Source: Muribaculaceae bacterium (GTDB lineage: Bacteria; Pseudomonadota; Alphaproteobacteria; Rs-D84). From it: DNA of 20,136 nucleotides. Under the pieces are notes generated by a model, which saw only the letters and a program-made list of their open reading frames with translations, was not told the DNA's origin and ran no database searches. Below, in pieces: positions 1 through 20,136 of the stretch. The stretch covers positions 1-20,136 of the forward strand of contig JAMPEH010000032.1 of assembly GCA_023665245.1 (NCBI GenBank), given 5' to 3'. How positions within the stretch are numbered: position 1 is the stretch's first letter; each line of letters opens with the position of its first letter. Position numbers and translations under genes: made by a program.

Positions 1-1735
1 CCCACACTCCAGAGCCGGCCGTCGTTATAGGCCACCTGGAGATAGGTGGAGATATCGGCGGTGACGGGCATACCCAAATAGATGGGCTGGGTGAGCTTGG
101 TGTAACCCTCGGGGGTCTTATAGCCGGCGGTCAGCTGGTTCAAGCTCAGCATGGCCTCCACGATGACCTCGCTGTCGTAGGCCTTTCCAGGTGTGTCGGG
201 ATTTTCAGCCAGCACGATGCTGGAACCGGAGAAATCGAAGTACATATCAGGCACATAGCCCAACATCTGCCGGTCCTTGCTGTAAAGCTCCACGTAACCG
301 GTCAACAGCTTGGAACGGTGATAGATCTCGCTGCTGCCGCTGGGGGCGGAACCCGCCTTGATCTGGTCGATGGTGACCACACCAGGCAAGCCGCTGGGCA
401 CAGCGCTGGGGGTCGTGACGGTATCGGGAAGTTGAGTGGTGCCGGAGTAGATGAACCCGACCACTTCCCTGCCGTACTCATAGCCCTGACTCAGAGCGTC
501 AAAAGTGGTGGGCAGGGTGTAGTTTTCCAGCACGTCCGGCACGATGATGGTCTCGCCGGTCTCATTGGTGACAGGCACAACGCTCTCTACACTGCTGTAC
601 CAGACCTGGTAGCCCATCTCAGGCGTGGTGATCTGGTCCACTGTGCCCAAGATATCGCCCTTTTCAGAGGTGGCGTCGTAATACTTGCCGGTACCCACGT
701 TCATATAGGCCCTGGAGAGAATGTTGCCCTCCTCATCGTACTTGACGTAGATCTCGTTTCCATAGACATCCACATAGGGCAGATACTTGGTCGTGGTCAG
801 CAGATTACCCTCGCTGTCCACCATCTGCTCGCCGGGCAGGATATACACATCGTGCTTGCCGTTGGCGTAACGGGTGTCGTATCCGTCCACGGAAGTATCG
901 CCACCCCATGTCTTGACCAGACCGCCGGTGGTGACGGCTACGGCGTTGTAGACGCCGCCGCTGACCTCCAGGGCACGGCCGCCCAAAACGGCCCGCTCGG
1001 GGGTCTCGGTGGTGCCGTAGCCGCCATAGGTACGGTGCTGGGCATCGTTAAGGCCCCAGCTGATGACCTGGCCGTCCCGCTTGAGGATCCGGGCATTGGC
1101 GGCGATCTTATCGGCAGACAGGGTCAGAGGATCGTTGAGGATCGTGAAGTTTTGGCTGATATTGACGGGCAGCGGCAGCGTCGTGCCCGCGTCGCCGGTA
1201 TTGTTGCCGGGGTTGACCACACCGTGGTAGTTGTAGCCCCAGGCGAAGACTCTGCCACTCTTATCCAACGCCATGGAGTACTGGCGGATGGTGTTGCCCT
1301 TCTCGTCCACCTCGCCCGCGGCCACGATGTCCACGATGGCAGAGGAATAAAGATCATTGCCCAGCATACCCTGGTCATTGGCGTAGTTGACGCCACGGAC
1401 CTGGACGGCGGTGTACTGCACGCCACCGATGCTGCCCTGGCCCAGAGCGCCCAGAGCGTTGTCGCCCCAAGCCCAGACGGTGCCGTCGGACTTCAGAGCC
1501 AGGTTGTGGTTGCCGCCGGCAGCGATCTTCACCACGCCGGTCAACGGCACATAGACCGTCTGACCGTCTACTGTGACCGCGGTCAAAACCTCAGCGGGAG
1601 TGGTAGACTGGCTGGTATCGCGCTGGAGCCCCAACTGACCCAGGTTGTTCTTGCCCCAGGCCCAGACAGAACCATCGGACTTCAAGGCGATGGTGTGGTT
1701 GGCGCCCACCTCAATCATCGGGAAGGCCACATCCT
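1..1735 (-). repeat. RCC1 propeller I, incomplete or interrupted
   Basis: Clear cores lie near 1659 (VWAWGKNNLGQLG), 1469 (VWAWGDNALGALG), 1241 (VFAWGYNYHGVVN), 1057 (VISWGLNDAQHRT) and 908 (VKTWGGDTSVDG). A long stretch of about 300 residues without a good core follows. The window then ends in another blade (LQVAYNDGRLWSVG, about 3-44). A weak blade-like segment (TGYVELYSKDRQMLGYV) sits near 240-310. So the block may be seven blades with a large insert, or five followed by a linker and a new propeller; the sequence here cannot decide. Confidence 0.75.
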
Positions 1736-4700
1736 TTTCCAGGGTCACGCCGTCTACATTCTGAGGTCCGGGCACCACGCCCAGTTTGAAGTAGCCGGTG
1801 TTGCCCCGGTCGTCGGTGACAATGATGTAGGTGTAGCCGGCAGTCTCATCCCCGGCGGTGATCAGGCCGAAGTCCGGGTTATAACCGCCACCTTGCGCCG
1901 CGGGCAGGAAGCAGTTGTTATCGACCTTAGCCACCCGTTCGTTGGTGGAGAAGAAGTTCAGATTCTCCGGCTTGGGAGTGTACTTGAAGGGACCATAGGC
2001 GTTAAAGCCCAGATTGGCCACAATATCCTTCACCGCAATGCGGACCTTATCGCCGTAGTTGACGGCCGTGGTGATCTCGCCCTTGGCGGAGATAAGGGTA
2101 TCATACTGGACGGTGGTAATGCCTCCATAGAGGAAGCGCACCGTCAGATCCACATCGTCCGAAGGCATCACGAATGTAGCGGTCTGGCTGTCCACCATCC
2201 GCACAGGGATCTCATAGGCGCCAAAGTTCTGCGTCTCGGCAGTAACCTTGATGTAGTAGGAGCTGGTACCCAGGTTGGCCGACACGGTGACCAGGTCACC
2301 GGCCTTGATGGTGGCCTTTCCATTGAGTACATCATTGTCGACGGTGATGCCGCTGATGCCCACAGGATCGCTGGTGGAGGTAACGGTGACCGAGTTGGCC
2401 GCGGTCAGCGAGGTACCGGGCACAGGGTTATAGTTGTCCACAACGTCCAGCTCCAGGGCGTAAGCCGGGTTGCTGCCGGCGGGACCAAACTCCGCCTCAA
2501 TGACAAAGTGGGTGTTCACGTTGTCATCGGTCAGGTTCATAATGAACTCGCCCAAAGCCACATTGGGGGTAATGCTATCGATCACGGTGAATTCCATGCC
2601 GATAATGTCGTCGGCCGGGGTCTGACCGGTATACTCCCGGTAGTGCAGACGGGTCAGTGCCTTGCCGTTGGGAATCTCGATGGCGAAGGGCACCCGCTCG
2701 CCCACCATAGCCTTCGCACTGGTCTTGGGATTGGTGGACAGGCCCAAATAGCTGTTGGGCGCCTCGTTCAGCAGATCCTGACCCAGGCGGAGGGTGTACT
2801 CCACGCCACCGCTGGCGAACTGATAGTCGATGACGGTGACCATGATGGTCACGTCCTCAGCGGGCATGATGAACCGGTCGATGTGATCCTTGACGCCGGT
2901 GGTATCCGGACCCTCGCCATCGCCCTTGGTGAAGGGCATGGGGATGACCACGCCGCCGGAGGTGACCATAGCCACAGAACCGATGGTGTATTCCTTTGCC
3001 ATGTTGATGTTCACGTCGATGGCGGTGCCGGCGGTGGCCTTAACGGTAGAGGTAGCACCGGTAAAGTCGGTGGTGACCACGCCCGCCACAGCCAGCTGCG
3101 CGGTACTGCTGGCCGCGGCCTCCTCCGCCACGTTGAAGAGGATGGTGGCGGTGTAGTCGGGCAGGGTGGGATCGTCGTTGACCAGCACGTGACTAATGTC
3201 CAGGTAGGAGCCGCCGCCGTCCATCAGGACCATGACGGGGGTGGTGTGGTCGCCGTAAGTGCCGTCGCCCAACTGGCCAGAGGTATTGTTGCCCCAGCCA
3301 TAGACAGAACCGTAGTTGTTGTCATAGGCCAGCACCGACCCGCCGTAGGGCGAGGTGGCGATGAACATCAGATTGTCCACCCGGGCGGCGCTGTTGATGG
3401 GATTAGCCTCGCCGGCCTGGACCGTCTGAGCCACCTGAGCCTTGCTCACACTACCGCCGCCCCGGCTGATACCCAGCTGGCCGTGGTCGTTATATCCGGC
3501 GGACTGAAGGGTATAGGGGATCAGGGCGGAGCTGTCCACAGCGCCGTCAGAGGTGATCTTGGTATTGCCCAGCTTGGTGTAGAGTACGTAGCCGGTCTGG
3601 CCCATAGCGGTCTGGAGGGCCACGGAATTGTAAGTGCCGATGAGCTTGGTATCCGCGCCCACGGTGTAAACGTCGGAATAGGTCGTGTTGTAAGAGGTCT
3701 GATAGCTGGCCTCCATAACGCTGTCGGGGATGGTGCGGCTGACCACGAACTGGCCGTCAGCCACCTTGATCTTCTCCCGGATGATGGTGGGCTCAGCAGG
3801 CTCGGTGCCCTCTTCGGGCTCCACGATAGTCTCTTTGATCTGGTACTTGGCGGGCTCATAGACCTTCTTGGTCTGATAGGCGGCCAGCTGACCCACCGCG
3901 TTGTCGCCCCAAACAGCCACCGCGCCGTCCACATCAATAGCGGCCACCGCGCCGGCGCCGGAACCGATGGCGATAAAGCGACTGGCAGAGGTGATGGGGT
4001 CGCCAGAACGATCCACAGGCAGAACCTCTTCCACGCTGCCATCGGCGGCCATGCGGGCATAAGTGCCGATCTCCGCGTAGTTGGGCCCTTGCAGAGAGTA
4101 GTTGGAAGTGCCGAACTGGCCCTTGGATGCTTCACCCCAACTCACCACGTCACCGGTCCAGGTGAGAACATGGCTGGTGGAGATGTTGGTGGAGATGTCT
4201 ACCGCTTGTGCGTTGGAGGGCAGAACGATCCGGGTGGGTACGGCCTGGGTACTCTTCATGCCGCTCTCGCCCATGACCAGCTTGCCATCGGCGTTGGAGC
4301 CCATGCCATACACATCGCCCATCTTGGTGAGGAACAGCGTGTAGTTCTCGCCAGCAGCGATATCCACAATGTAGTCGCCAGGCCGCACCAGGTACGGCGT
4401 CACATCCACATAAGTGGGTTGCAGGACATTCTCCAGCTTACCCTCGGCGTTCAAGCCGCGGCCCAACTGGCCGTACTGGTTGTTGCCCCAAACCACCAAC
4501 TGCTCCTTGGGATCGGTCTTGTCGGTGAGGGCCACGGTGAAGTTGTTGCCTACGGCGATCTTGGTGATAACCATGTTCACCAGGGTAGTATCCAGGCTGC
4601 CCACCATGCCTGCGCCAATGATCTGCTGGGGCGAGGTATAGTTGACCACATCAGCCCGGCCCTTACCCAAACGGCCATCACCCACGCCGGAGATCTCGTC

Positions 4701-7700
4701 GTAGTTGCTACCGAAGGTCCAGACGGTGCCGTTATCCCGGAGGACCACAGAGAAGTTCTCGCCCGCGCCCACCTGCGGATAGGTCAGGCTGGGGATGCTC
4801 TCCAGATCCTTCTCGTCCTCAGGCAGCGGTTTACCATAGACCCGGAAAGCATTGGAGTACTTATAGCCTGTGGCGGGATCGGTATACTCGGCGATGATGT
4901 AGCCCACGCCGAAGCCAACCACATCCACTACGCCCACGTGGCGGCCGTTGACCAGCTGGGTCTTAACCACAGCCACCTCTTCGTTGAGAGAGCGCAGTTT
5001 CACATCAGCGGCATCCAGCTTTCGGATGACGTTGGCGTTGATAAGGTTGAAGCCGTCCCAGGTCTTAGTTCCCAGGCGGTCCAGATCCAGGATGACCTGG
5101 CCACCCACAAAGCGGACATACTCATAATTCACATTGGCAGAGTTCAGCGCCACATCGTCGGCAGGATCAGCGTTGGCATTGGCGTCCACCACCTCGCTCC
5201 AAGTGAGGGCCACGTCCTCCTCACCCACCGTCTTGGTGGCCGTCCAGGTCAGCTCGTTGAGGTAGAGGCCCAGGATCTTCTGGTCCACGCCTACCCGCAA
5301 GCCCTTGGACTCCATGGCGTAGAGCTGGGAATCGGTGGTACCCAGCTGCATGTTGTTGTTGTAACCCATGGCGTAAACGCTGCCGTCCTCCATGAGGACC
5401 ACGCTGTGGTTCTCGCCCGCAGTCACGGCCAGGGCCCGATAGCCCTGGGTCCCGTTCAAAGTGATGGTGGTGCCGCGGCGGACATTCACGGTGTCGCCGG
5501 TCTCGATCATAACATCAGGGAACTCGGGATCAGGCTCGGTGACAGGCACCTGCTCATAGTAGATATCGGTGAGAATGTTGGCATAGTCGGCCTCGCGGAT
5601 ACCGCCCTCGTCATTTCCATGGCCCAGCTGGCCATAGCGGTCGCTCCCCCAGGTATACACCGCGCCGTCGCGGCCCAGAGCCATCATGTGCGCGTAGCCG
5701 ATAGCGGCCTGGGTCACCAGGGTATCGTTCGGCAGTTCCATCTGAGTAGGCACAGAGGTCGTAACGCTGTTCATACCGCCAAAGCTCTGGTCACCAAAGG
5801 TCCACAAGGTACCGTCCTTACGGATGACGGCAGAGGTGTTGAACCCAGCATAGATGCTGGCAGCGTCGCTGATGGAGGTGCGCATAGGCACCGACTTGAA
5901 GGTCTCGTTGAGAATCACGCTGGAGCCCGGATCGTAATCCTGGTCCACCAGGTCACGGGCAACGCCCAACTGACCAGCGCGGTCATCGCCCCAAGCGTAG
6001 ACATTGCCGTACTGATCCAGCGCCAGGATGTGGTCATCACCGGCTGCCACGGCCACGATATTGGTCAGGTAGACCTTACCCATATCAGCCAGATCGTTCT
6101 GGTCCCAGGCGAAATCGATGCGGTCATTGGCCGCCAACACGGGATCCAGGATGGAGTTATAATAGAACTTGCCGCCGGTGGTGGTGCCCCGCAGGACCCG
6201 GACGGGGGTAGCCTGGTTGCTGAGCAACTGCTCGCTGGCGTAACCGTAGTACCCATCAGTCGTCCGGGGACCAGTGCGGTTGATACCCAACACGCCATAA
6301 TAGTTGGCACCCCAGGTGTACACAAAGCCGTCGGCATCCACCGCCACGGAGAACTGGTTGCCCGCGGCGATATCCACGATATTGCTCAAGAAATTGCTCT
6401 CCACATCCTGCTGGCCCTTTAGGACCCGGACAGGTACGGTGGAGTAGGTGGACTGGCTGGTGGTGGAGGCACCGCCGCCCAACTGGGCCTTGTCATTGGC
6501 GCCCCAGGCGTAGACATAGCCATACTTATCCAGGGCCAGGATGTGGTTGCCGCCCGCAGCCAACTTGACGATATCCTTCAGATAGTCGCCGTACTGGTCC
6601 ACATCGGCATTCACGTAGGCCCGCACCTGCATGGGCGTCTCCACCCGGGCACGGCCCACCTGGGCTACGCCGGTACCGCTGACGCTGAAGATATTGGCGC
6701 CCCAGGTCCAGACGGTGCCGTCGCTCATCAACGCCACGGTAAAGTCATTGTAAGAGACCACCATGGGTGTTACATCCACGCTGGAATCCTCAGGCTTTTC
6801 ATAGGTACCCAAGGTGGCGGCCACATAGGGATCATCCTGGTGGCGGTACTCGATGGTGATGTCCCGGGTGGCCCGGCCGTAGTTGTAGGTGGTGTAATCG
6901 GTGTAGTTGGCAAGGCCGTTGTCAGCGTCGTTATCGGCCAGATAGCGGTCAGACAGAGTGATGGTGCCGCTCTCAAAACGCTGGTCCTTGTCCGCGTGCG
7001 GCAGAACGATCCAGTTCTCCCTGCTTTCAAACTGACCCATATTGGAGGAGACCATGCTCAGGTCCTCCACCCGGTTGGAGTCGGTAGAGTAGCCATGGAT
7101 AAGGTTGAAGTAGAAGTTGTTGACCTCGTAGACCTCACTCTTCTTGACGATAAACACCTGGCCCTCGCCCAGGACGACCTTGTCTCCCAGCGGGTTGGCG
7201 GCGTTGAAGAGGATGCCGTCAGCCACCACCCTGTTCATCTCGGGCACCCGGACGGTGGAGGAGACGAAGGAAATGTCGCTGCGGTCGTTGATGTTGACCA
7301 CGGAAGCATCCGACCCGCTCTCCGACCCGGCAGCGAAGAGGGTCACCGCCATAGGCTCGCTGGCCGCCATCAGCTGGGCGGCGGGCTCAGCTTGAAGTGT
7401 CTGGATAGAGGTATCCACACCGGTAGCAATGTACTGGACCAGGCGGTCAAAGCCGTAGTAATCCAGGAAGGCGGTAACGGTATCGCTGTCTGCGTCCGCA
7501 TAGGTATCGTTTAGGTTTAGGATAGCGGCATAGCCCACCTCCAGGGTCTTATCAGCACCCATAGCCTGGGGCAGCAGGACCTGATCCACCCGCTGAGAGG
7601 TGTGGCCGATTCCCAACGCACCGGCGACGTTAGACCCCCAGCTGTAGATGGCGCCCTTGGCGTCCATGGCAATGGTGCTAGTGCCGGTGGTATCCATAGC

Positions 7701-10700: not shown

Positions 10701-13700
10701 ATACTGACCGGCGGCCACGGCGATGGCCTTCAGCTCCCGAGCGGGAGTGATGACCTCAGTAGACTCATCCACATCCTCAGTCTCAGGATCGTCTTCGGCC
10801 ATGACGGCGGGGACGATCAGCTTCACTTCCCCGGCCACATTGGCGGGAGCGCCGGTGAGCACATCCCGGCCCAAGACGCCGTTGTCCATGGTGCCCCATG
10901 TGTAGATCTTGCCGTCGGCAGTCAGGGCGATGTTGAAATCGTCGCCCGCGGCCACCATAGGCACGATGGTGTTGCTTTCCTCTCCAGATCCGCTGGAACG
11001 GTTGACCACCAGCGTGATCACGCCCAGCTCCAGATACTGGCCGTTGGCGTCCATATGCTCCAGATCCCGGACCAAGACCTTGACGATACCGGTGGCAGTG
11101 GGATCGGCGGTGATGATGCCAGTGGCTTCGTCAATGGAGACGATATTGTCGGCCCCCGACTGGATCTCCACACGGTAGCGGCCGGAGTTGGCGTCCTCCA
11201 GCTTACGGCTCTGGTAACGGGTCAGGTTGAAGTAGTACGGGTCATTGGTGACCACCTGGGTCAGCCGGATGGCCTGGTTGTTGTAGATGAGGATGACGGG
11301 GTCCTCGCCCTGACTGGAGACACTCTTCTCCACGGGGTTGTCGGGATCGGTCACGTCCTCATAGAGGGTGGGCAGCAATCCATAGCGGTCGCCGGTAATG
11401 CGGTGGAGGGTGTCCTTATCCCGGTCACTCAGGCTGCTGTCGCCATTGTTGTCCACAAAGCCATCCTTGTCGCCCAGGGCGGCAAAGGCGTCGGAACCGT
11501 AGGCATACATGGCACCATTTTCGGTCATCAGCACAATGTGGCTATCGGCCACGCCGACGGCGGTGACGTCGCTGAGGAGATAGTCGGCGGTGTCGTCCAG
11601 AGTGGTGGTGACGTATGCCTCGCCTGCCTGGACCAAGTTCTCCTGACCAGGCAAGGTGGCGCCCACGTACTTCCAATGATAGACCTGGCCCTGGTTGGCC
11701 TCGTCGGTGGCGTTGATACCGCCATCCATCCGAGACAGCCCGGAGGTCAGCAGAGCGGCGGAGTTGTGGATCGCGTCCATCTGGTAAACCAGATCCTCAC
11801 CCAGGAACTCCCCATTTTCACTGCGGTAGAGATCCAGCCGGGTGGCGAACAGATTGTTCTGGCCGCCCACCTGCCCCCAGTACCATACGTGACCGGTGTC
11901 ATCCAGGGCCAGGGAGAAATAATTGCCAGCCTGGATGGCCACGATGCCCGTCAAAGCAGTACCGTCGGCCTTAAGGACCTGAACGGCGTCGTTATAGCGG
12001 TACTCGGCGGCATGGGCTGCGGTCTGGCCCTTGTCGGCAGCACCGCTGTTCCCCAGCTGACCGTAGGCGTTGTTGCCAAAAGCCCACACGGTGCCGTCAC
12101 CCTTAAGCATGAGGGTGTGATCCCGGCCACCCGCCAGATCGGTGACATTAGCGGTCTTCATGCGGAAGGCGGTGGAGAAATTGGTGTAGGGGATCTTGTC
12201 CCGGCCGATCTCGCCGGCGTTGTCATAGCCCCAGATGTAGACGGTGCCGTCCTGCATCAGAGCCGCGGCGTGCTGGGTGCCCGCGGCCACCTTGATGGCC
12301 CGGTTGGCATAGGTGTGGGTATAGTAGTGGTCGGTGGTGATAAATCCATCGGTCACGTTGTGTCCGGTGTAGCCGAACAGGGCCTTGTCGGTAGCGCTGG
12401 CGGTAACTACCTGGGAATTGTCATAGGAGCCGAAGAACTGCCCGGCGCTGTTCATTCCATAGTCGCCGTAAGGCGTACCTCCAAAGGTCCCTGCGGGACC
12501 GCCCTGAGCGTAGGTAGCGTAAGCGCCGTCGAATTTCTCCTCCACGCCCAGGCGGACGTCGGGGTTGCCATTCAAGGTGTTGGGATAGCTGTACTGGACA
12601 GCGTCCAGCCGAACGGCCATCAAGCTGTTGGCGGCGATGCTGCGAGTGACGGTATCGCCATAGCCCAACTGACCGTGGTCGCCCAGACCCCAGGCATAGA
12701 CCTGACCGCTGCCCTTGAGGAACAGCACGAAGTGGTCGCCGCCGGCGATCTGGGTCACACCGGTGAGGTAGCCGCTCTCGTCCTCGGGATCCCGGACTTG
12801 GGCGGGCACAAAGACGGGGCTGTCGGCGGCCACGTTGCCGGAGCTCAGGTTGTTGTAGCTCTGGTTGCGGCCCCAGGCCCAGACGGTGCCGTCGGCCTTC
12901 AAGGCAAAGGAATACTCCTCGCCCAGCAGGATAGCCGGGGTGGCGCTCTGGTGGACCAGCTGACCATCGCCCACGTGACCCTCCACACCGATGGCCACAC
13001 CGTCCACATAGGTAATGGCGTCATCGAAGAAGGCAACACGAATCTGGGCGGTGTAGCCAGTATCGGGATCAGTGACAGTGACGTAGGAGTACATCCCGGT
13101 CTCCACATTGGCCCAGTTGATAACGGCGAGGCCGGGCACGGTGGCGGAGAAGGTCAACACCCGCTCGTTCAAACTCTTGAACACCAGGCGCTTACGGTCC
13201 TCATCAGCGGTGTACATGCCCGGATACCACACAACCTGCGTCAAGATGTTGAAGGTATCGGTGCGCTGGACGGAGATATCCTCGGGATCGATCCGGAAGG
13301 TCTGGAGCTGGTGCTTGTTGAGCCGGATCTCCCACGGCATATGGGTGGAGTAGTCGATGGTGACGATGTCGCCGGCAGCGGTGTAATCGGCTGTACCCAC
13401 ATCCACCTGCTGCAAGGCCAGACGCTGCGTGCGAATTTGCGCGTAGTATACTTGCCTGGGTTCGGCGATGGTGGTGGCATAGGCGGTGTCCGCCATGCCC
13501 ATACCCAGCTGGCCCAGCTTATTGCTGCCCCAACTCCACAGCGTACCGTCGCTCTTAAGGACTACCACGGCACCGTTGCTCATAGCAAGGCCATAGGTCT
13601 GACGGTACTTATCCATGGCGAAGTCATTGTGGTCCAAGCCGGTCTCATCATACTTACTGACGCTGACAGGGATGGAGTTCACAGCGTTGTGATCCAGCGT

Positions 13701-16700
13701 GACGATTTCCGTCAGATTGGAACCCCACTGGTGGACGTCCCCAGCCTTGGTAAGGATAGCACTACCCGTACCGCCCACGGCCAGAGCCACGATGCGGTCG
13801 TTCACATCTACCTTGGCCTGCGCGGTCAGGGTTGTCTGGGTCGTGGTGCCCTCGCTGTCGGTGACGGTCCCCAGGTAAGTATAGCCGGTGGTCAGACCGT
13901 TGACCACCACAGGCCGGCCGGCAACCATGTTGCCCCGGTCGGGACTCAGCTGGCGGGCGGCGTTGGGCCCGATGGCGTAGACCGTACCGCTTCTGTCGCT
14001 GCGGAGGAAAGTGGTGCCAGCGGTATCATCGCTGACGGCGTAGACCCGGTTCGGGTCGTCCCCGGTAACAGAGCTTTCAATGGTGGTATAGGTGCCGTAA
14101 ATGTCAGCGGCGGCCTTGACGGTGCGCTCCTCGTTGCCGCTCATCCCCAGCAGAAGGATGTGGTCAGCGGTGGAGGTAAAGTTGGCTGCCACCAACAGGG
14201 CGTCCCGAAGGTAGTTGCCCTGGTGGTTGATCTCGCTGCCCTCCCGGACAGGCATGGGCACCCGCTGGCGATCCTCGCTGAAGGGCGCGATCCGACTGCC
14301 GTTACTGGTCAGGGTAACGCTGGGTACGATGGAATGGGTATTACCCACGTTGACATCGCCGATATCATTGCTGCCGTTCATCACACCGAAACTGTAGACA
14401 TAGCCGCCCACGGTGCGGACCAAACTGTAATTCCGCCCGGCGTAGACGCTCTCCACGTTGACCAGATAGCCCTCGTCATAGACGTGGCCCCAGTTATGCT
14501 CGGCGGTGTTGACCAGGCCGCCCCGCTCCAGGCGGACGGGCATCAGTACATCGCCATCGCTGTTGGCCCGGCGGTTGACCTGGCGGTTGGCGTTACTGCC
14601 CCAGCCGAAGGCGTAGCCCCGATCGGTGACGGCAAGTGTATGGTCGTAGCCACCGGAGATCTGGACGATGGTGCCGTAAGCGTTCACGTTACTCAGGCTG
14701 GTCTGGGCGGGATAGACCTGGATGTTTCCGTTGGTGCCAATACCAAGTTGTCCATGGTCGTTGTTGCCCCAAGCCCAAACAGTACCGTCAGCGGCAATGG
14801 CCAGAGCGTGGTTGGCGCCGGCGGCGATATCCACAATACCCTTGAGGTAGTCGTTGCCGTTCTCACCCCGGACCTGGATGGGTGAATACTCATAGCGGAC
14901 AGCGCCGGAGGTGCCATCGCCCAGCTGGCCATAGGTGTTGTCACCCCAAGTCCAGACAGATCCGTCCGCCATCAGGGCCATGGCGAAGTTTTCGCCGTAG
15001 ACCACCTTGGGTGCGGTGAGCTTCACGTTGGGCGACTCGGTGCGGTCCTCCTTGGGCCGGACGGTAACGGAGAACATGCGGGTGACCTGGGTGGTGTTTT
15101 CCCGGATCATCACGGCCACGGTACCAAAGGCGTTCGGCATGGTCCGCAGTTCGAAGTAGCCGCTGGCCGGGTTCACATAGACGGTCAGGATAGACTCGTC
15201 AGAGGAGACCACGGTGAACTGGTCGGTGGTAATGGGGCTCTTGATGCCGGTGTGGACACCACGGTCAATGCCGGCAAAGCCGATGCTATCGGTGGTGGAG
15301 AAGGAGGACAGGAAGTCCTCAGCCACCGCCTGGCCGAAGTGGTCCTCGCCCACACCGGCGGTGCGGTAGAGGTTGGTGCCCACCACGGTGTAGCGCAACA
15401 GGTTCTCACCGCTCTCAGTCTCATCATGATAGGTCTGGACCCAATCCTCGTCAGCGCCCTCGGGCTTGGGGTCAGCCACTTGAACGGTCTTGGTGTAGTT
15501 GATGCCGATTCGCAGAGCGTCGCCCTCGGTGAGCTGGAAGCGGGCGGTGTTGAATTCACCGGTGGTGGCAACGGAGTTATAACGGGTGTGTTCGGTCAGG
15601 GCGCCGTCGAAGTCCTGATAGACCACGTCGCCATAATGCATAAAGTCTGTGATGTAACCAATCTGATCGATGCGGATAGTATCCTCGTCCCGGGCACCCA
15701 CCAGCACGGGGGTGTTGGGCGAGCTGACGCTCTTACTGTCGCCCAGGGCGTTGGAGGAACTCATGTAGCCGAACTGCGGGCCGTAAGCGCCGTTGGAGCG
15801 GCCGCTGAGGTGGGTGCCATCTCCGATGGTACCCATGGCATAGACGGTGCCACCGTTCTGGGCCTGCTGGGTCCGGACGGTAACGGTTGCCAGGATCTTG
15901 TCGCCCTCCACCCGGACGGAATGGGTGTCGGCGGCCACGGCGTAGACGCTCAGGTCGGTACCGGGGGTATAGGTCCCCACCTGGACCTCTGCTGTCTCGG
16001 TCAGGCGGACATCGTTCTTATAGATGGTGGTCTGGCTGTGACTCAGAGCCACGCTCTGAGCGCCCAAGAATGCCTGCTCGTCGGTGTTGTTGACCGACAG
16101 GAGCCCGGCTGTGCCGCTGTCCCGGCTCTCCCCGGCCACAGCACGCTCCAGATAGGTGACCTTGGTCTTCCCGGCCAATTCGTTGCCTGCGGCGTCGGTC
16201 TTGGCAAGGCCCAACTGACCCTTGGCGTTGTCGCCCCAGGTGTACAGATGGCCTTCGGCGTCAATGGCGGCGGAGGCGTTGGCCCCGGCGAAGATTCGAG
16301 TGATAGGCAGAGCATACTTGGTCACAACGGGCTGGCCACTCTCGTCGGTGACGATGTTGCCGTCCGTGTCGGTCTGATAGATAACATGGTCGCCAGTAGC
16401 CAGGACCTTCACCGGCACGTTGGAGCCGGTGGTGGTGCCGTTACCCAGCTGGCCGTAGGTGTTGTCGCCCCAGGCCCAGACCTGGCCGAAGCTGTCCAGC
16501 GCCAGGACATGGCCGTCGCCCACAGCGATATCCACGATATCGGTGAGGTAGTTGACCGAAGCGGCCTGTTCACCGGCCTTGACCTGGACCGGATAGATGC
16601 GGTCCAGATCGCTGCCATCACCCAGGGCGCCTATGCTATCCCAGCTAGACGAGCCGCTGCGAGAAGCGCCGTGGTTATTGGCCGCGTAGTTATAGGCCCA

Positions 16701-19700
16701 GCTGCCGCCAGAGCCGGAAGTATTGATACCCCAGGTAAACACGGTGCCTGCGGAGGTCAGCGCCACAGAGAACTCGTCGCCGGCAGCGATCTTGGTGATG
16801 CGGGCACCGTAGTTGGCTGCGGTCATGGCGGTGGTGGGCGCCTTCAGGGACTTATCGGAAGTGGTCTCGTCGGCGTTCAAGTTATTGTCGGCCAGGTAGT
16901 CGGTGCCGTGGAGGCCCAGAACGGTGACGGGCACCAACTTGGAGATGTAGTTGCTGGCGCTGGAGTAGGTAGTGGCGCCGTAGGAACCGGAAACGCCCTG
17001 ATACCCATACTGCGCGTCGGTGCTGTGGTGGGAGCTTCTCGCGTTATAGCTGCCAGCGCCGTTGATGGTGGTCACATGCCACTCGCCAGGCACCGCGTCG
17101 CCGGCGCGCATCAGAGCGCCGAAGCCACGCATGGCGTCCCGGGTGGAGCCGCCGCCGTTGGTCATGTCCTCCGTGCGCCAACCATCCCGATTGCTGCGGT
17201 CGTACTGCGGGACGGAGAAGTCGGTGTAGAGGTACTCCACAGACTGATAAGCGCCCGAGTTGCCCCAGTAGACCACAGTACCGTCAGAGCGAAGGGCCAT
17301 AGCGAAGTCACGGCCGGCGGTGATCTGCACCGCGTCGCTCATATAGGCGGGACGGCTGCTGATAAAGTGGTTGCCGGCTTCGTTGACCTCAGCGCCATAG
17401 TAACTAATGGTCGTACCCACAGCGGTGACCTTGACGGGAGAATAAGCGTTGGTATCCCGGATGGCCGCCCACCAGTCGGTGTAACAGCCGCAGTGGCTGC
17501 ACCAGTAGCAGTGATGGTGGCAGAACTGATAGAGATATTCGTAAGTGTAGTTCCAGTTGCCGTTGCCCAACTCGGCAGCGTTGTTGTAACCCCAGGAGTA
17601 GACGCTGCCGTCGGCGGCCAGAGCGTAAGAGGTGTATTCACCGGCCGCGATGGCGATAATGCCGGACAGGGAACTGCTGGCGTCGGCGCCGGAACCAGAG
17701 TTGTAGCCGTAGGAGCTGTTGTACTCCTGCCAGCCAAGGACCTTTTGGGGCGTGGTGTAGGTGCGGAAGGTACTGCGGCCCTGGCTATCATAGGCGGTAG
17801 TCCAGTACTTGGTGTAGGCGTAGCGGCCAAAGCGCGGGCAGTACTCCACCGCGTTGCGGTTGTTGCGGTTGACGCTGGTGGCAATACCCAACTGACCGTA
17901 CATGTTAGAGCCCCAGGCCCACACGGTGCCGTCGGCCTTCAGCGCCAGGGTGTGGTTCACTCCCGAGACCACCATGGGCGTAGCCATGCCCGTGGCGGGA
18001 TAGACCTCCAGCTGCATAATGCTGGTGGCCACCACCTGATACTGATAGCCCTCGTCAGCGGAAACGGGCTTGCTGGTTCCGTTTTCGTAGATGGGATCGC
18101 CCCGCTTGTCCCGCAGGGCCTCATAGGCCTTAAAGACCACGCTGGTCTCGCCGTACTCGTTGAGACCGGCGGCACGGATGACCCATTGGCCGTCCACCTT
18201 GTTGGCCACGGCGATGGAGGTATCGGTGACCTCCACGGTGATGTAGTTGGTGAGCATACCGGGCGCGCCGGGCATGCCAGTCTGAGCCATCACCCGCTGG
18301 GTGGTGGCGTTGGTGCCGGAATAGGTGATATAGTGGTCGGCCTTCAAGCGCAGCTGCTGGCTGTCGTCCATGCGGTAGCGCCAGGCATTGTGGTCGGCCA
18401 CATCGGCCTCGCTGACGGTGACGCGCTGCTTGCCGGAGCCCAGATTGAGCCCGGTGGTGGTGGTCACGCCATTGATAAGTTGATCGGTGGCGGAGTCAAC
18501 CCCCTCAGTACTGGCGGTGAGGTCGCCGTCCTCCTGATCGATGCTGGCCGTAACATAGATGCCGCCGTCGTAGCGGTAGCCACTGATGACAGGAGTATTG
18601 TTCTGCAACCGCTGGAGGTTAATGGTACCCAGCTGCAAGTAGCGGTTGTTGCCCCAGCCCCAGATGTAGCCATCATAGCGGATGGTGGAGGCATGGTTGT
18701 AACCCATGGAGATATCCTTGACGTTGGTCAGGTTCCCGGTCTTCTCCGTGACCTTGTAACCCTGAGTATCCACGCTGGTGTCCAAAATATCCTTGGTGGC
18801 GACATGCTCAGCCGTCTCGCCATCTTGAACGAACAGCGGGAAGTTCACGTTGTGGTTGGCGGAGTTGCCGTCGCCCAGCTGGCCCAAGTTGCCATAGCCC
18901 CAAGCGTAAAGCTCCGCGTCCCGGCGGTACTTCAGCTCGGTGGCAGGATCAGTGGGATCTGCGGTGGGATCGATGGGCACAAAATTCTCATGGTCGATAC
19001 GGTTGATGGCCGCAGAGCTGTAGACGCCTGCCTCCACCGTCTTGACGCCGTAGAGATGCTTCTGATCCACATACTTTCCGCTCTGGTCCACTTCGGGGGC
19101 AGCATACTGCGTACGCGGCACGAAGAAGTAGTCAGCGCTCTGGGTATCATAGGTGTAGCCGGTAATGGTGCCATCGGCAGCCACCTCGGCCTTGCCGGAG
19201 GTCAACTGCTTATAGGTATTGTCGCCCCAGCCGAAGACCTTCTGCTGGGCGGCCTCCAGCTGGTCGGCCGTCAGGGTAGTGTCAAAGATAACGGTACTTT
19301 GGATGGCCAGCATGTGATTCTCGCCCACGGCGATGGAACCGATACCGGTCAGATAGTTGCCGTCATTGGCGGAATCGCCCTTGCGGACCTGTGTGGGCGC
19401 GCCGATGGGCTTCTGGTTCTCGTTGATGCCCAGCTGGCCCTTGTCGTTGCGGCCCCAAGTCCACACGGTGCCGTCGCCCTTCAGAGCGGCGGAAGTGTCG
19501 CCACCGGCGTCCACCATGACCACGTTGCCCAAGTGACCCTCGCCACGGTCACCCAGGACCTTGACGGGAACATAGCTGTTGACCCACTTCTCGCTGAGGG
19601 TCTCCCGGCCCAACTGGCCGTATGCGTCGTTACCCCAGGCCCAGACCTCACCGGTGGTGGTTGCCACCACGGTGTGGTAGCGGCCGGCGGCGATGTCCAT

Positions 19701-20136
19701 GATCTCCACGTCCTTGCCGTTCTCCCGGATGGACACGCGCTGCGCGATGGGTGAGTAGGTGACATTGTTATAGGTCGCGGTGGTTGCATAGCCCAGCTGG
19801 CCGGAGTCGTTGCGGCCCCAGGTCCAGACATAGCCATCCGCGTCCAGGGCTACCATATGCTCATAGCCCGCGGCAATGGCCTTGACATTGGACAGATAGA
19901 TCACAGCGCCGGTATCGGGGTCGATGGCCTTGACCTTCTGAGGATTGGCCACGCTGGTGGGCGAGTAGGCCACACCGTTGGGATAGTCAGAGCCAGGATC
20001 GCCGATCTGGTTAAGCGGGTAGGGCGAGGCGGTGTTCACATTCAGCGTGCCACCCCGGTTGTTCTGGCCCAAGATGCCATACACATTGTCGCCCCAAGCC
20101 CAGACGTTGCCGTCGGTGGTGTTCATGGCGGAGAAG
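1..20136 (-). CDS. Giant RCC1-repeat / Ig-like modular protein, partial at both ends
   Basis: One minus-strand frame stays open over the full window: it reads FSAMNTTDGNVWAWGDN at the right edge and LQVAYNDGRLWSVG at the left edge, in the same phase, giving 6,711 codons without start or stop. About 60 copies of the RCC1 blade signature (AAGxxHxxALxxDGxVWAWGxNxxGQLG) are visible, grouped by sevens and separated by linkers, several of them Big_2-like. RCC1 repeats form beta-propellers used for protein binding, as in eukaryotic RCC1 and the bacterial inhibitor BLIP-II; automated pipelines often label such proteins 'alpha-tubulin suppressor-like RCC1 family'. I infer an extracellular or surface-attached binding protein because of the Ig-like modules, great size and near absence of cysteine; signal peptide and anchor would lie outside the window. 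No catalytic motif was seen. The partner and exact function are unknown. The coding call is near certain; the cellular role is inference. Confidence 0.97.
310..890 (-). other. Unassigned non-RCC1 insert near the C-terminal window edge
   Basis: About 190 residues after blade 5 of propeller I. It is rich in Tyr, Gly, Thr and Val, with segments such as DVYGNEIYVKYDEEGNILSR, YYDATSEKGDILGTVDQ and a Thr/Pro/Ser-rich run (GTTQLPDTVTTPSAVPSGLP) that looks like an extended, exposed linker. I recognise no family. It could be an insert in the propeller or the start of another linker. Confidence 0.45.
1740..3235 (-). other. Linker 8, long multi-domain stalk with B-repeat-like and Big_2-like parts
   Basis: Nearly 500 residues without RCC1 cores, more than twice most other linkers. 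Two parts end in very similar strands: RFIMPAEDVTIMVTV (MPAEDV at 2850-2867) and TATFVMPSDDVDLTVRF (MPSDDV at 2151-2168). The F-x-MP-x-x-DV-x-[IL]-x-V motif is a landmark of divergent InlB B-repeat-like domains common in surface proteins of Bacillota. A third part ends with FFSTNERVAKVDNNCFLPAA, then GDETAGYTYIIVTD and GNTGYFKLGVVPG, a Big_2-like pattern carrying a lone Cys (1911-1913). The region probably forms three or four small beta domains in a row. Confidence 0.7.
3240..4800 (-). repeat. RCC1 propeller H (seven blades)
   Basis: Cores near 4716 (VWTFGSNYDEISG), 4491 (LVVWGNNQYGQLG), 4306 (VYGMGSNADGKLV), 4138 (VVSWGEASKGQFG), 3912 (VAVWGDNAVGQLA), 3500 (LQSAGYNDHGQLG) and 3297 (VYGWGNNTSGQLG). 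Blade 6 has lost its Trp (SAG). The region before it, about 3550-3890, carries a Glu/Pro-rich charged insert (KETIVEPEEGTEPAEPTIIR), which is probably an exposed loop. Confidence 0.88.
4801..5339 (-). other. Linker 7, Big_2-like Ig module
   Basis: About 180 residues between propellers G and H. It contains ADVKLRSLNEEVAVVKTQ (partly re-read codon by codon around 4980-5002), then GFGVGYIIAEYTDPATGYKY and the closing strand SNAFRVYG. The S-L-N-E-x-V step and the Gly-x-x-x-I-x-x-Y strand repeat what is seen in linker 3, so the two are probably paralogous modules. An acidic, Asp/Ala-rich loop (DANANADPADDVALN) lies in the first third. Confidence 0.75.
5340..6780 (-). repeat. RCC1 propeller G (seven blades)
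   Basis: Cores near 6706 (VWTWGANIFSVSG), 6506 (VYAWGANDKAQLG), 6315 (VYTWGANYYGVLG), 5994 (VYAWGDDRAGQLG), 5800 (LWTFGDQSFGGMN), 5652 (VYTWGSDRYGQLG) and 5368 (VYAMGYNNNMQLG). Spacing is regular at 150-320 bases. This is one of the most orderly propellers in the window and shows the AAGxxH step well (LAAGGNHILALDKYG, IAAGNQFSVAVDADG, VAAGDDHILALDQYG). An acidic, Pro-rich loop (PVTEPDPEFPD) comes before the last blade. Confidence 0.92.
6781..7599 (-). other. Linker 6, helix-containing region plus beta module
   Basis: About 270 residues without RCC1 cores. The first part looks helical, unlike other linkers: DSDTVTAFLDYYGFDRLVQY and then an Ala-rich run (LQAEPAAQLMAASEPM). A Ser/Gly/Asp hinge (AAGSESGSDAS) follows, then beta-rich sequence (GEGQVFIVKKSEVYEVNNFY and GTITLSDRYLADNDADNG), closing with TRDITIEYRHQ. 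I do not recognise a named family; an Ig-like fold for the second half is a guess. Two of the six rare Leu/Ser codons of the window, both CTA, lie at its very start (7512-7520). Confidence 0.5.
7600..8785 (-). repeat. RCC1 propeller F (five clear and two degenerate blades)
   Basis: Clear cores lie near 8718 (LWAWGSNAYGQLG), 8532 (IWTWGRNGYTND), 8037 (VYAYGSNNHGQLG), 7862 (LYTWGQGDVGQQG) and 7639 (IYSWGSNVAGALG). Between the second and third of these, two degenerate blades can be traced: ALAGDQIISYLTSGNAVYSL near 8283-8340 and ADYMGNTLVYAGTNGVAYVN near 8150-8205, both keeping the hydrophobic rhythm but losing Trp-Gly. Counting them gives seven, like the other blocks. Those two blades are only about 40 residues each, short for RCC1 but similar to the blade size of BLIP-II. 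Confidence 0.8.
7722..7757 (-). other. DxDxDG calcium-loop-like motif in propeller F
   Basis: The codons read DLDHDGVTTDLA (window residues about 4127-4138), following ADFYTGIGY in the loop between the last two blades. D-x-D-x-D-G is the core of EF-hand-like and thrombospondin type 3-like calcium loops, and the following Val-Thr-Thr-Asp resembles bacterial DxDxDGVxD repeats. The twelfth position is Ala rather than Asp or Glu, so binding may be weak or absent. Confidence 0.5.
8786..9284 (-). other. Linker 5, Ig-like module
   Basis: About 165 residues between propellers E and F. Strand-like segments include ALSHVVNIRNDQFLTLTDLA, TDNTNFKIATSAPLVDI and the closing pair EGTTLITITETVSG / LSVQFTLNIAKT. 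The G-T-T-x-I-T-I strand followed by S-V-Q-F-T-L-N-I fits the end of a Big_2-like fold, though the S-x-N-x-x-V landmark is not obvious here. The module ends at EPMIVSGEDFTLAL, opening propeller F. Confidence 0.62.
9285..10970 (-). repeat. RCC1 propeller E (seven blades, insert before blade 7)
   Basis: Cores near 10899 (IYTWGTMDNGVLG), 10662 (LWTWGHNVYSQLG), 10477 (VWSWGRNEKGQTG), 10275 (VYTWGDNDHGQLG), 10012 (VYAFGYNYNGSLG), 9832 (VYTWGQNTYGQLG) and 9348 (VLTSGRNDHGQIG). Blades 2-4 and 6 are close to consensus. The gap between blades 6 and 7 is about 160 residues rather than the usual 55-65 and holds an unassigned beta-rich insert. Blade 7 has Ser in place of the core Trp (TSG). Confidence 0.9.
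10971..11474 (-). other. Linker 4, acidic loop plus Ig-like module
   Basis: About 165 residues. It opens with an Asp-rich segment (annotated separately) and continues with a beta-rich part: YRVEIQSGADNIVSIDEATG, then ITADPTATGIVKVLVRD and a closing strand ELGVITLVVNRSSGSG. The order 'I/V-S-I-D-x-x-T-G-x-I-T-A ... G-x-x-x-V-x-V' is the Big_2 pattern. A short Ser/Gly/Glu hinge (RSSGSGEES) joins it to propeller E. Confidence 0.72.
11418..11453 (-). other. Dockerin/EF-hand-like calcium loop (DNNGDSSLSDRD)
   Basis: The codons read DNNGDSSLSDRD (window residues about 2895-2906), which fits the 12-residue D-x-[ND]-x-D-x6-D spacing of dockerin and EF-hand calcium loops. It is embedded in a longer acidic run, DKDGFVDNNGDSSLSDRDKD. 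Only one full loop is present, so this is not a complete dockerin (which has two). It most likely binds Ca2+ to stiffen the joint between propeller D and the following Ig-like module; calcium binding is inference. Confidence 0.65.
11475..12945 (-). repeat. RCC1 propeller D (seven blades)
   Basis: Cores near 12876 (VWAWGRNQSYNNL), 12693 (VYAWGLGDHGQLG), 12236 (VYIWGYDNAGEIG), 12081 (VWAFGNNAYGQLG), 11882 (VWYWGQVGGQNNL), 11675 (VYHWKYVGATLPG) and 11502 (MYAYGSDAFAALG). Blade 6 is odd: Gly after Trp is replaced by Lys (HWK), yet the flanking pattern is kept. The loop after blade 2 is about 100 residues longer than usual and rich in Gly, Tyr and Phe (for example AQGGPAGTFGGTPYGDYGMN). Confidence 0.88.
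12946..13489 (-). other. Linker 3, Big_2-like Ig module
   Basis: About 180 residues between propellers C and D. It contains LVFKSLNERVLTFSA (re-read codon by codon near 13150-13195), then PGLAVINWANVETGMYSYVT and DTGYTAQIRVAFFDD. The S-L-N-E-x-V step, the Gly-x-A-x-[IV] strand and the closing V-x-F strand match the Big_2 bacterial Ig fold. The N-terminal part (ADYTAAGDIVTIDYSTHMPW) is an extra beta-rich piece. Of the eight linkers, this and linker 7 show the pattern most clearly. Confidence 0.75.
13490..15010 (-). repeat. RCC1 propeller C (seven blades)
   Basis: Cores near 14949 (VWTWGDNTYGQLG), 14772 (VWAWGNNDHGQLG), 14605 (AFGWGSNANRQV), 14392 (VYSFGVMNGSNDIG), 13976 (VYAIGPNAARQL), 13728 (VHQWGSNLTEIV) and 13532 (LWSWGSNKLGQLG). 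Blades 1, 2 and 7 are near consensus. Blades 4 and 5 have lost the Trp before Gly (SFG, AIG), and the stretch between them is long (about 140 residues), holding strand-like segments such as DHILLLGMSGNEERTVKAAA. The blade count of seven fits a closed propeller. Confidence 0.9.
15011..15700 (-). other. Linker 2, Big_2-like Ig module
   Basis: About 230 residues lacking RCC1 cores. The second half has the Big_2 pattern: FTVVSSDESILTVYVNPASG followed by LRTMPNAFGTVAVMIRENT and a closing strand MFSVTVRPK. The S-x-D-E-x-[VI] step and the later Gly-T-[VA]-x-[VI] strand are the typical landmarks of that fold. The first half (around 15340-15660) is beta-rich with an acidic patch (ADPKPEGADEDWVQTYHDE) and may be a second domain that I do not recognise. 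The module ends just before KVVYGENFAMAL, the first strand of propeller C. Confidence 0.65.
15700..17985 (-). repeat. RCC1 propeller B, seven blades with large loop inserts
   Basis: Blade cores lie near 17917 (VWAWGSNMYGQLG), 17596 (VYSWGYNNAAELG), 17268 (VVYWGNSGAYQ), 16735 (VFTWGINTSGSGG), 16473 (VWAWGDNTYGQLG), 16240 (LYTWGDNAKGQLG) and 15838 (VYAMGTIGDGT), again seven. This block is about 2.3 kb, much longer than its neighbours, because the loops of blades 1-4 and 7 carry inserts rich in Tyr, Ser, Asn and Gly. Six of the only seven cysteines I found in the window are in this propeller: one in an EYCPRFGRYAY segment (codon 17838-17840) and five in the Cys/His cluster at 17484-17522. Blades 5 and 6 are ordinary. 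Confidence 0.9.
17484..17522 (-). other. Cys/His cluster in propeller B, possible metal-binding loop
   Basis: Codon-by-codon reading of the minus strand gives CHHHCYWCSHCGC, window residues about 872-884: five Cys and four His in 13 residues. It sits in the loop after blade 2 (after NAAELGNGNWNYTYEYLYQF and before YTDWWAAI). The rest of the 6,711-residue stretch has almost no cysteine, so the clustering stands out. The spacing does not match a zinc finger, rubredoxin knuckle or CxxCH haem site that I can name. Binding of Zn, Cu or Fe-S, or disulfide bonding in an extracellular protein, are all possible; none is shown. Confidence 0.75.
17986..18600 (-). other. Linker 1, Ig-like beta-rich module between propellers A and B
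   Basis: About 200 residues without any RCC1 core. The stretch alternates hydrophobic and polar residues as beta strands do, for example NYITVEVTDTSIAVANKVDG followed by WVIRAAGLNEYGETSVVFKA, which resembles the second half of a Big_2/cadherin-like Ig fold (Val/Ile, then Gly, then a closing strand). It begins with an acidic, Thr-rich run (SIDQEDGDLTASTEGVDSAT) and ends at PMVVSG, which opens the next propeller. No catalytic residues were noticed. The Ig assignment rests on pattern only. Confidence 0.6.
18600..20136 (-). repeat. RCC1 propeller A (seven blades visible)
   Basis: Seven blade signatures are seen, with W-x-W-G cores near 20100 (VWAWGDNVYGILG), 19820 (VWTWGRNDSGQLG), 19638 (VWAWGNDAYGQLG), 19458 (VWTWGRNDKGQLG), 19230 (VFGWGDNTYKQLT), 18903 (LYAWGYGNLGQLG) and 18658 (IWGWGNNRYLQLG). 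The first four are close to consensus and evenly spaced by about 180-280 bases. Blade 5 has a short Glu/Ala/Gln-rich insert (TADQLEAAQQ) before its strand. If this block also has seven blades, the window edge falls almost exactly at the first blade of a propeller, so another linker would be expected just beyond 20136. That last point is inference. Confidence 0.9.

Follow-up and report, generated by a model that had tools for sequence, protein, structure and literature searches.

The 20,136-nucleotide contig JAMPEH010000032.1 (GenBank assembly GCA_023665245.1, deposited as Muribaculaceae bacterium), which was analysed whole and is called the window here, is an internal piece of a gene of ~40,000 codons that encodes a giant chain of RCC1-type propellers. 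The gene has roughly six times the length of the window and ranks among the largest in bacteria. Judged from sequence, the chain strings together many unlike propellers whose order is constant, and each of them is conserved between species. We put the probability at roughly 0.6 that the product would be a giant fibre exported to the surface, which partner proteins retain at the cell wall and which either binds many ligands or forms a coat. An original prediction, made from the letters of the window, had seen its RCC1 blades grouped by sevens into eight consecutive propellers. That observation was confirmed and turned out to be understated, the whole being far larger than the window; the interpretation given with it was supported in part.

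Results

The window lies inside an uninterrupted frame of giant size

The minus strand of the window is occupied by a single stop-free frame of 6711 amino acids (aa; positions 3..20135), which is open at both ends. Orthologues were located by scanning genome contigs with the linker between propeller blocks F and G of the window, which led to the four loci of genomes G001–G004 on contigs of 173–253 kb. Four giant frames from separate assemblies, read base by base, were free of N: those of genomes G001 (40,690 aa), G003 (39,569 aa) and G004 (37,709 aa), all uninterrupted, and that of G163 (32,278 aa), which runs without a stop on a 3.67-Mb contig and has a signal-like start. The predicted products span 32,000–41,000 aa across the four, and those of the three largest orthologues are acidic chains of 4.1–4.4 MDa. 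By interpolation, the window corresponds to about residues 15,195–21,890 of the G001 orthologue and, by our own division of that orthologue, to propellers 18–26 (p18–p26) of the full gene. In G001 the gene measures 122 kb, about 5% of a genome of ~2.3 Mb.

A protein search yielded, besides the window itself, two collinear relatives, P0003 (54–58% identity) and P0004 (39%), each on a contig that does not extend beyond the frame. These two are fragments of one metagenome-assembled genome (MAG) and overlap on the same propellers; because they are only 43% identical there, they must come from two genomes or from two paralogues. The "Roseburia" label that they carry was not accepted, as Oscillospiraceae or Clostridia is the label of those orthologues that lie on long contigs. 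The bacteria carrying the giant gene are probably gut-dwelling, judging by sample names such as Lapin. A C-terminal piece served as a further survey query: of 400 genomes from G001's family, 7 matched, and of 394 from G004's order, 3 matched, with G001 and G052 common to both sets. This survey added G163, G307 and G119; the match in G052 was weak and lay in a 1,307-aa frame.

Comparison of the window with the orthologous sequence L001 gave a ratio of nonsynonymous to synonymous substitution rates (dN/dS, NG86) of 0.34 for blocks F and G and 0.35 for blocks C and D, which indicates purifying selection on the giant gene. A viral or phage origin was rejected, since the F–G linker found no relative in viral contigs and the phage collection held no near match. 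The plus strand of the window also shows long frames (3–6422, 7602–10100, 10137–14885 and 15252–19754; up to 2139 aa), which we interpret as the mirror frames to be expected opposite a gene whose third-position G+C is high (0.78–0.79). RNA elements were absent from the window at Rfam gathering thresholds.

Blades of the RCC1 type form blocks of seven

All three thirds of the translation matched Pfam RCC1_2, RCC1 and WD40_RLD (E 1.7e-64 to 1.9e-203), in agreement with the RCC1-type blades of the original prediction, and by repeat profile all three thirds belong to the RCC1/BLIP-II propeller superfamily. Only RCC1-type families exceeded the Pfam cut-offs in the window, with Alsin_RLD additionally in the middle third. 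Blades were scored with an iterated 30-residue profile that was trained on the window's own blades and later retrained. They group into nine blocks, A–H and a block I cut by the window edge, which are listed here in the order of the chain.

18627..20135, minus strand: block A (p18), seven blades, the first cut by the window end
17976..18626, minus strand: linker A–B, from the spacing between blade runs
15807..17975, minus strand: block B (p19), six blades and a weak seventh, with large insertions
17484..17522, minus strand: Cys/His-rich knob CHHHCYWCSHCGC (residues 872–884), inserted between blades 2 and 3 of block B
15009..15806, minus strand: linker B–C
13503..15008, minus strand: block C (p20), seven blades, with an insertion preceding blade 5
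12936..13502, minus strand: linker C–D, Ig-like by eye, no Pfam match
11472..12935, minus strand: block D, between linkers C–D and D–E
10959..11471, minus strand: linker D–E, Ig-like by eye, no Pfam match
9318..10958, minus strand: block E (p22), seven blades
8778..9317, minus strand: linker E–F
7611..8777, minus strand: block F (p23), five scored and two short degenerate blades, seven strand groups in the model
6765..7610, minus strand: linker F–G, the diagnostic stretch for finding orthologues
5340..6764, minus strand: block G, between linkers F–G and G–H
4776..5339, minus strand: linker G–H
3267..4775, minus strand: block H (p25), seven blades
1731..3218, minus strand: long linker H–I, ~500 aa
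3..1718, minus strand: block I (p26), five scored blades before the window ends

Five of the blocks A–H (A, C, E, G and H) contain seven blades that were scored directly; in block A, where the window edge cuts the first blade, more blades are possible. Blocks B and D had also been counted as plain sevens, and each of them requires one weak or degenerate blade to reach that number: block B has six blades and a seventh of 4–6 bits, and block D has six together with a degenerate blade at the sixth position, which we recognised by eye when the orthologues were aligned. Block F reaches seven, as had been proposed, if its two degenerate blades are counted with the five scored ones. The third blade of this block was scored in 3 of 7 sequences and is plain in L002, and the fourth was scored in none of the seven and is visible only by eye and in the model. 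The description of the array as beads on a string, with consecutive units of seven joined by linkers, stood. Its eight units are present, with a ninth in the window and, by our division, 34 in the full gene. Position 1735, the lower coordinate given in that prediction, is where block I begins, and this block is itself cut by the window end.

The Cys/His-rich knob of block B (FCHHHCYWCSHCGC) stands out in a chain that is almost free of cysteine (7 Cys in 6711 aa). Cys/His-rich counterparts occur in the same block of G003 (15710), of G002b (7351) and of P0004 (2755), and the corresponding block of G001 has no Cys cluster. Elsewhere the orthologues carry CxxC...C knobs that are zinc-ribbon-like in appearance. 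The Cys/His-rich knobs are possible metal sites.

Two of the blocks are predicted to be closed seven-bladed rings

Four of the eight blocks A–H (C, D, F and G) were folded by structure prediction. In structure comparison, the models of D and G matched complete seven-bladed RCC1-type rings, and a closed ring of seven blades is therefore predicted for these two. The comparison rows covered mainly G and D, so the absence of C and F from them is no evidence on those blocks. By our reading, the C and F models each show seven strand groups, a matter of strand counts only, and the last three groups of the C model mostly have a pLDDT below 55. Of the eight closed rings that would bear out the original prediction, the models gave complete ones for D and G and strand groups for C and F. 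The solved structures of RCC1, UVR8, the RCC1-like domains of HERC2 and BLIP-II share both the fold of D and G and their sequence family; they have one propeller per solved domain (HERC2 has three, by the titles of its PDB entries) and a different biology.

Thirty-four unlike propellers keep one order between species

In the G001 orthologue, 219 blades were scored, all within residues 920–28,400. A simple gap rule sorts them into 48 runs: 14 hold exactly seven blades, one is longer (nine) and the rest are shorter, many of these being parts split by insertions. Using the spacing of the blades, we then partitioned G001 into 34 blocks, guided at several large gaps by the expectation of seven; this division joined runs split by insertions of up to ~850 residues and shared out the one run of nine. 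The results from gap-rule runs (G001, G003, G004 and G163) are independent of it. Over the 34 blocks, with four to seven sequences per block, 21 hold seven blades, nine hold six, one holds five and three hold eight, so that 30 of 34 have six or seven. Among the blocks of eight, p4 looks like an alignment split. Block p34 has six blades across the orthologues, though the G001 sequence taken singly scored seven. The rule of seven has exceptions, because p11 has six strong blades and no seventh in 4 of 4 sequences. The count is strengthened by G163, in which 21 of 38 runs are exactly seven without any division by hand (232 blades in all, with one run of fourteen).

In G003 and G004, each of the 34 propellers had a counterpart, and these followed the order of G001. 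The same order was found in G002 (p1–p9, then p10–p34), P0004 (p15–p23), P0003 (p20–p26) and the window (p18–p26); p9 of G002 was ambiguous, with 53 bits in the first half and 57 in the second. When the chains were cut into 500-residue pieces, 107 of 159 pieces of G003, 100 of 151 of G004 and 27 of 27 of the window matched a propeller, and the steps from one matching piece to the next were non-decreasing throughout (106/106, 99/99 and 26/26, the last over nine propellers). In the more distant G163, 88 of 130 pieces matched, 33 of the 34 propellers were represented, and 81 of 87 steps kept the G001 order. The best propeller exceeded the second-best, with median scores of 239 and 88 bits in G003, 188 and 90 in G004, 435 and 90 in the window, and 164 and 100 in G163. 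Within one chain, propellers are ~29% identical (median of those among the 561 G001 pairs that have >150 aligned residues), and single propellers are 26–63% identical between G001 and G003 or G004. The array, which the original prediction took to suggest a multivalent binder, is better described as a fixed series of unlike propellers, since its beads are not equal copies and each is conserved between species.

Blades keep their position across propellers

For a test of register, the similarity of same-position blades across propellers was compared with that after random rotation (5000 trials). For gap-rule runs of seven, 0 of 5000 rotations reached the observed similarity in G001 (14 runs), G003 (18 runs) or G004 (15 runs; a 36,884-aa piece). 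With general blade similarity removed, the excess in G001 was 4.93, at a null spread of 0.46 and a null maximum of 2.15 (0/5000; 20 blocks with exactly seven blades, 106 usable cores). Blade 1 had the clearest positional signature, and adjacent propellers were somewhat more similar than distant ones (13 adjacent pairs). Because same-position blades resemble each other across propellers, seven is inherited, and the array most likely grew by copying whole propellers.

Chain ends and a conserved four-gene locus

In a simple hydropathy scan, the strongest hydrophobic segment of G001, G003 and G004 was the N-terminal signal-like stretch; with the signal included, the three chains have 7, 5 and 3 hydrophobic stretches, respectively. 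Propellers fill the first ~28,000 residues of the giant. In the ~12,000 residues that follow in G001 (28,400–40,690; L015–L017), Pfam recognised nothing beyond three cadherin-like stretches, and BLAST revealed no repeats within them at E 1e-5. The C-terminus of G001, G003 and G004 carries two EF-hand/dockerin-like motifs, judged from a pattern search and visual inspection. The last 200 residues of G001, G003, G004 and G002b contain no LPxTG-like motif.

The giant is the first gene of a four-gene locus, which spans 154 kb in G001 (40,080–194,240) and has the same order in G001, G003, G004, G163 and G307. The second gene encodes a secreted protein of 1460–1922 aa with a dockerin-like end, for which Pfam gave a sub-cut-off match in G001 and no match in G004, G163 and G307. 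The third encodes an S-layer-homology (SLH) protein with Big_2 (3056–3643 aa), present in 5 of the 5 loci scanned (the same five genomes), and the fourth a large secreted protein of 3414–5509 aa. The fourth protein (C3 179250–194240 in G001) has an acidic, proline-rich C-terminus in several genomes and, in G001, one InlB-B-type (Flg_new_2) Pfam match.

Discussion

A proposed surface fibre and its alternatives

We propose that the N-terminal signal peptide directs export of the giant, predicted to occur by Sec, and that the SLH protein and the dockerin-like partner would hold it non-covalently at the cell wall. The chain would then project as a fibre on which different propellers could serve as separate docking sites for glycans, for proteins of the host or of partner cells, or for the cell's own exoproteins. 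Many distinct binding sites are favoured over filler because unlike propellers are individually conserved. A stronger form of this proposal, which we consider tentatively, is an ordered surface template, in which each of the ~34 different propellers would have its own ligand and the order would be kept since position matters; such a template could, for instance, arrange enzymes, glycans or partner cells in sequence on a fibre that might approach the length of a cell. If true, no longer array of heterogeneous receptor-like domains would be known from a single polypeptide.

Several observations weigh against an intact, wall-held chain of closed propellers. The G002 frame is split by an in-frame TAG (C1 158082–158206) into 8,036 and 29,988 aa on a stretch that is free of N, and G119 (C2) shows two frames of 18,501 and 13,329 aa, the piece inspected there containing N; strain decay, phase variation and assembly error are candidate causes. 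The G307 frame, given as 32,936 aa, is no proof of an intact frame because a 100-N gap lies inside it near the 3' end. The mean pLDDT of the models is low (53.6 and 49.9), and the Ig-like look of the linkers was judged by eye alone. When the register test was confined to the nine window blocks, 99 of 5000 rotations reached the observed similarity. G002a has an internal hydrophobic stretch that outscores its signal, and a weak hydrophobic stretch lies 233 residues from the C-terminal end of the G003 chain. Pfam recognised no family, hence no dockerin, in the final 716 residues of the G001 giant, and cohesin was found in none of the four genomes G001–G004 (it was present in 1 of 14 control genomes). 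Anchoring by a classical dockerin–cohesin pair is not supported, given the lack of cohesin in those genomes and of a Pfam dockerin at the end of the G001 giant. The genes downstream of the giant also differ in G002.

An alternative of some weight, to which we give appreciably less credence than to the ligand-binding or coat-forming fibre, is a passive coat or spacer, in which the giant, as a thick layer or a stalk, would protect the cell from phage, predators, bile or proteases. On this view the propellers would be rigid, protease-resistant filler instead of receptors. Propellers are in general compact and rigid domains, the last 12,000 residues are poor in recognisable families, as described above, and a 39,678-aa Omnitrophota protein is proposed to form a coat in the passages of PMC10066038 that concern it. 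Filler, however, would tolerate the loss, gain and exchange of units, whereas the order of the propellers is preserved here and each of them resembles its own counterpart most. Cleavage after export into many propeller proteins is suggested by size alone and by the linkers between the units, but we regard such a precursor as improbable: no recurring cleavage motif was noticed, though no systematic search was made, and the conserved C-terminal motifs suggest one anchored chain.

The similarity to RCC1, of which human and plant proteins are solved relatives, could also be read as that of a eukaryote-like effector acting on host GTPases. The size of the giant, its N-terminal signal peptide and the neighbouring SLH gene make this very improbable, and RCC1-type propellers include BLIP-II, a secreted inhibitor of bacteria as described in PMC9218822. 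We attach least credence of all to an assembly chimaera or a decayed gene. The mostly MAG origin of the sequences, the split versions in G002 and G119 and the gap in G307 would fit it, but the four uninterrupted N-free giant frames are largely collinear and the dN/dS values are those of a constrained gene.

Relation to known RCC1 proteins and giant proteins

The surface-fibre proposal has a close described parallel in bee bifidobacteria, for which the sections of PMC4449606 on these proteins describe chains with 2–4 RCC1 domains of ~seven repeats each and an LPxTG signal. Both are exported proteins of Gram-positive gut bacteria, by prediction in the case of the giant, with several domains per chain and an average of ~seven repeats in each domain. 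The giant differs in having ~34 RCC1 domains (nine in the window alone) where those proteins, as described there, have 2–4, in having an SLH partner gene and in lacking an LPxTG-like motif near its end. A further difference is that the translated window has no hit to Flg_new even at an E value of 1. In a mollicute MAG, a single seven-bladed propeller has been modelled together with four Ig-like folds, according to the part of PMC10928387 that treats it.

Blade runs of database relatives were counted, among the matches listed, in 41 of 121 proteins, near-duplicates being omitted. P0005 (Candidatus Magnetomorum) has ten clean runs of seven, and P0006, P0012, P0013 and P0098 have 10–13 runs at or near seven. 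The statement of the original prediction that one or two propellers are usual for RCC1-rich proteins fails for these large bacterial relatives among the matches listed, which are 5.6–7.6 thousand aa long and align at 25–27% identity over 8–21% of the query. Another family of large RCC1 proteins is formed by P0015–P0097: 78 of these 83 listed proteins are exactly 7235 aa long, and RCC1, M23 peptidase and cadherin-like Pfam matches occur in nearly all. In P0015, 73 blades form one unbroken run at the gap setting used, with no visible breaks by seven.

In size and in its proposed surface role, the giant resembles the 39,678-aa open reading frame of the Omnitrophota bacterium V. archaeovorus LiM, which has 42 predicted transmembrane helices according to the same passages of PMC10066038. 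As reported there, most Omnitrophota giants have few annotated domains and are poorly conserved, whereas the giant described here has conserved RCC1 propellers and few, weak hydrophobic stretches; by hydropathy scan it lacks the many transmembrane helices of that group. A term search of the main text of a survey of huge proteins (PMC11573180) found RCC1 unmentioned. No description of a 34-propeller RCC1 giant or of its locus was recognised in the open PMC literature, a weak negative that does not cover bioRxiv. The giant is a new and extreme variant among RCC1-propeller surface proteins.

Significance

Titin has ~35,000 aa, and an Omnitrophota protein of 85,000 aa has reportedly been found. 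Here bacteria employ RCC1 propellers, otherwise familiar mainly from eukaryotic nuclei, at a titin-like scale. The cell must depend on the giant, because the array was kept collinear while its single propellers diverged to 26–63% identity. Two questions become concrete: how a 4-MDa chain is made and exported, and why its array keeps its order. The conserved four-gene locus defined here can be found in other genomes.
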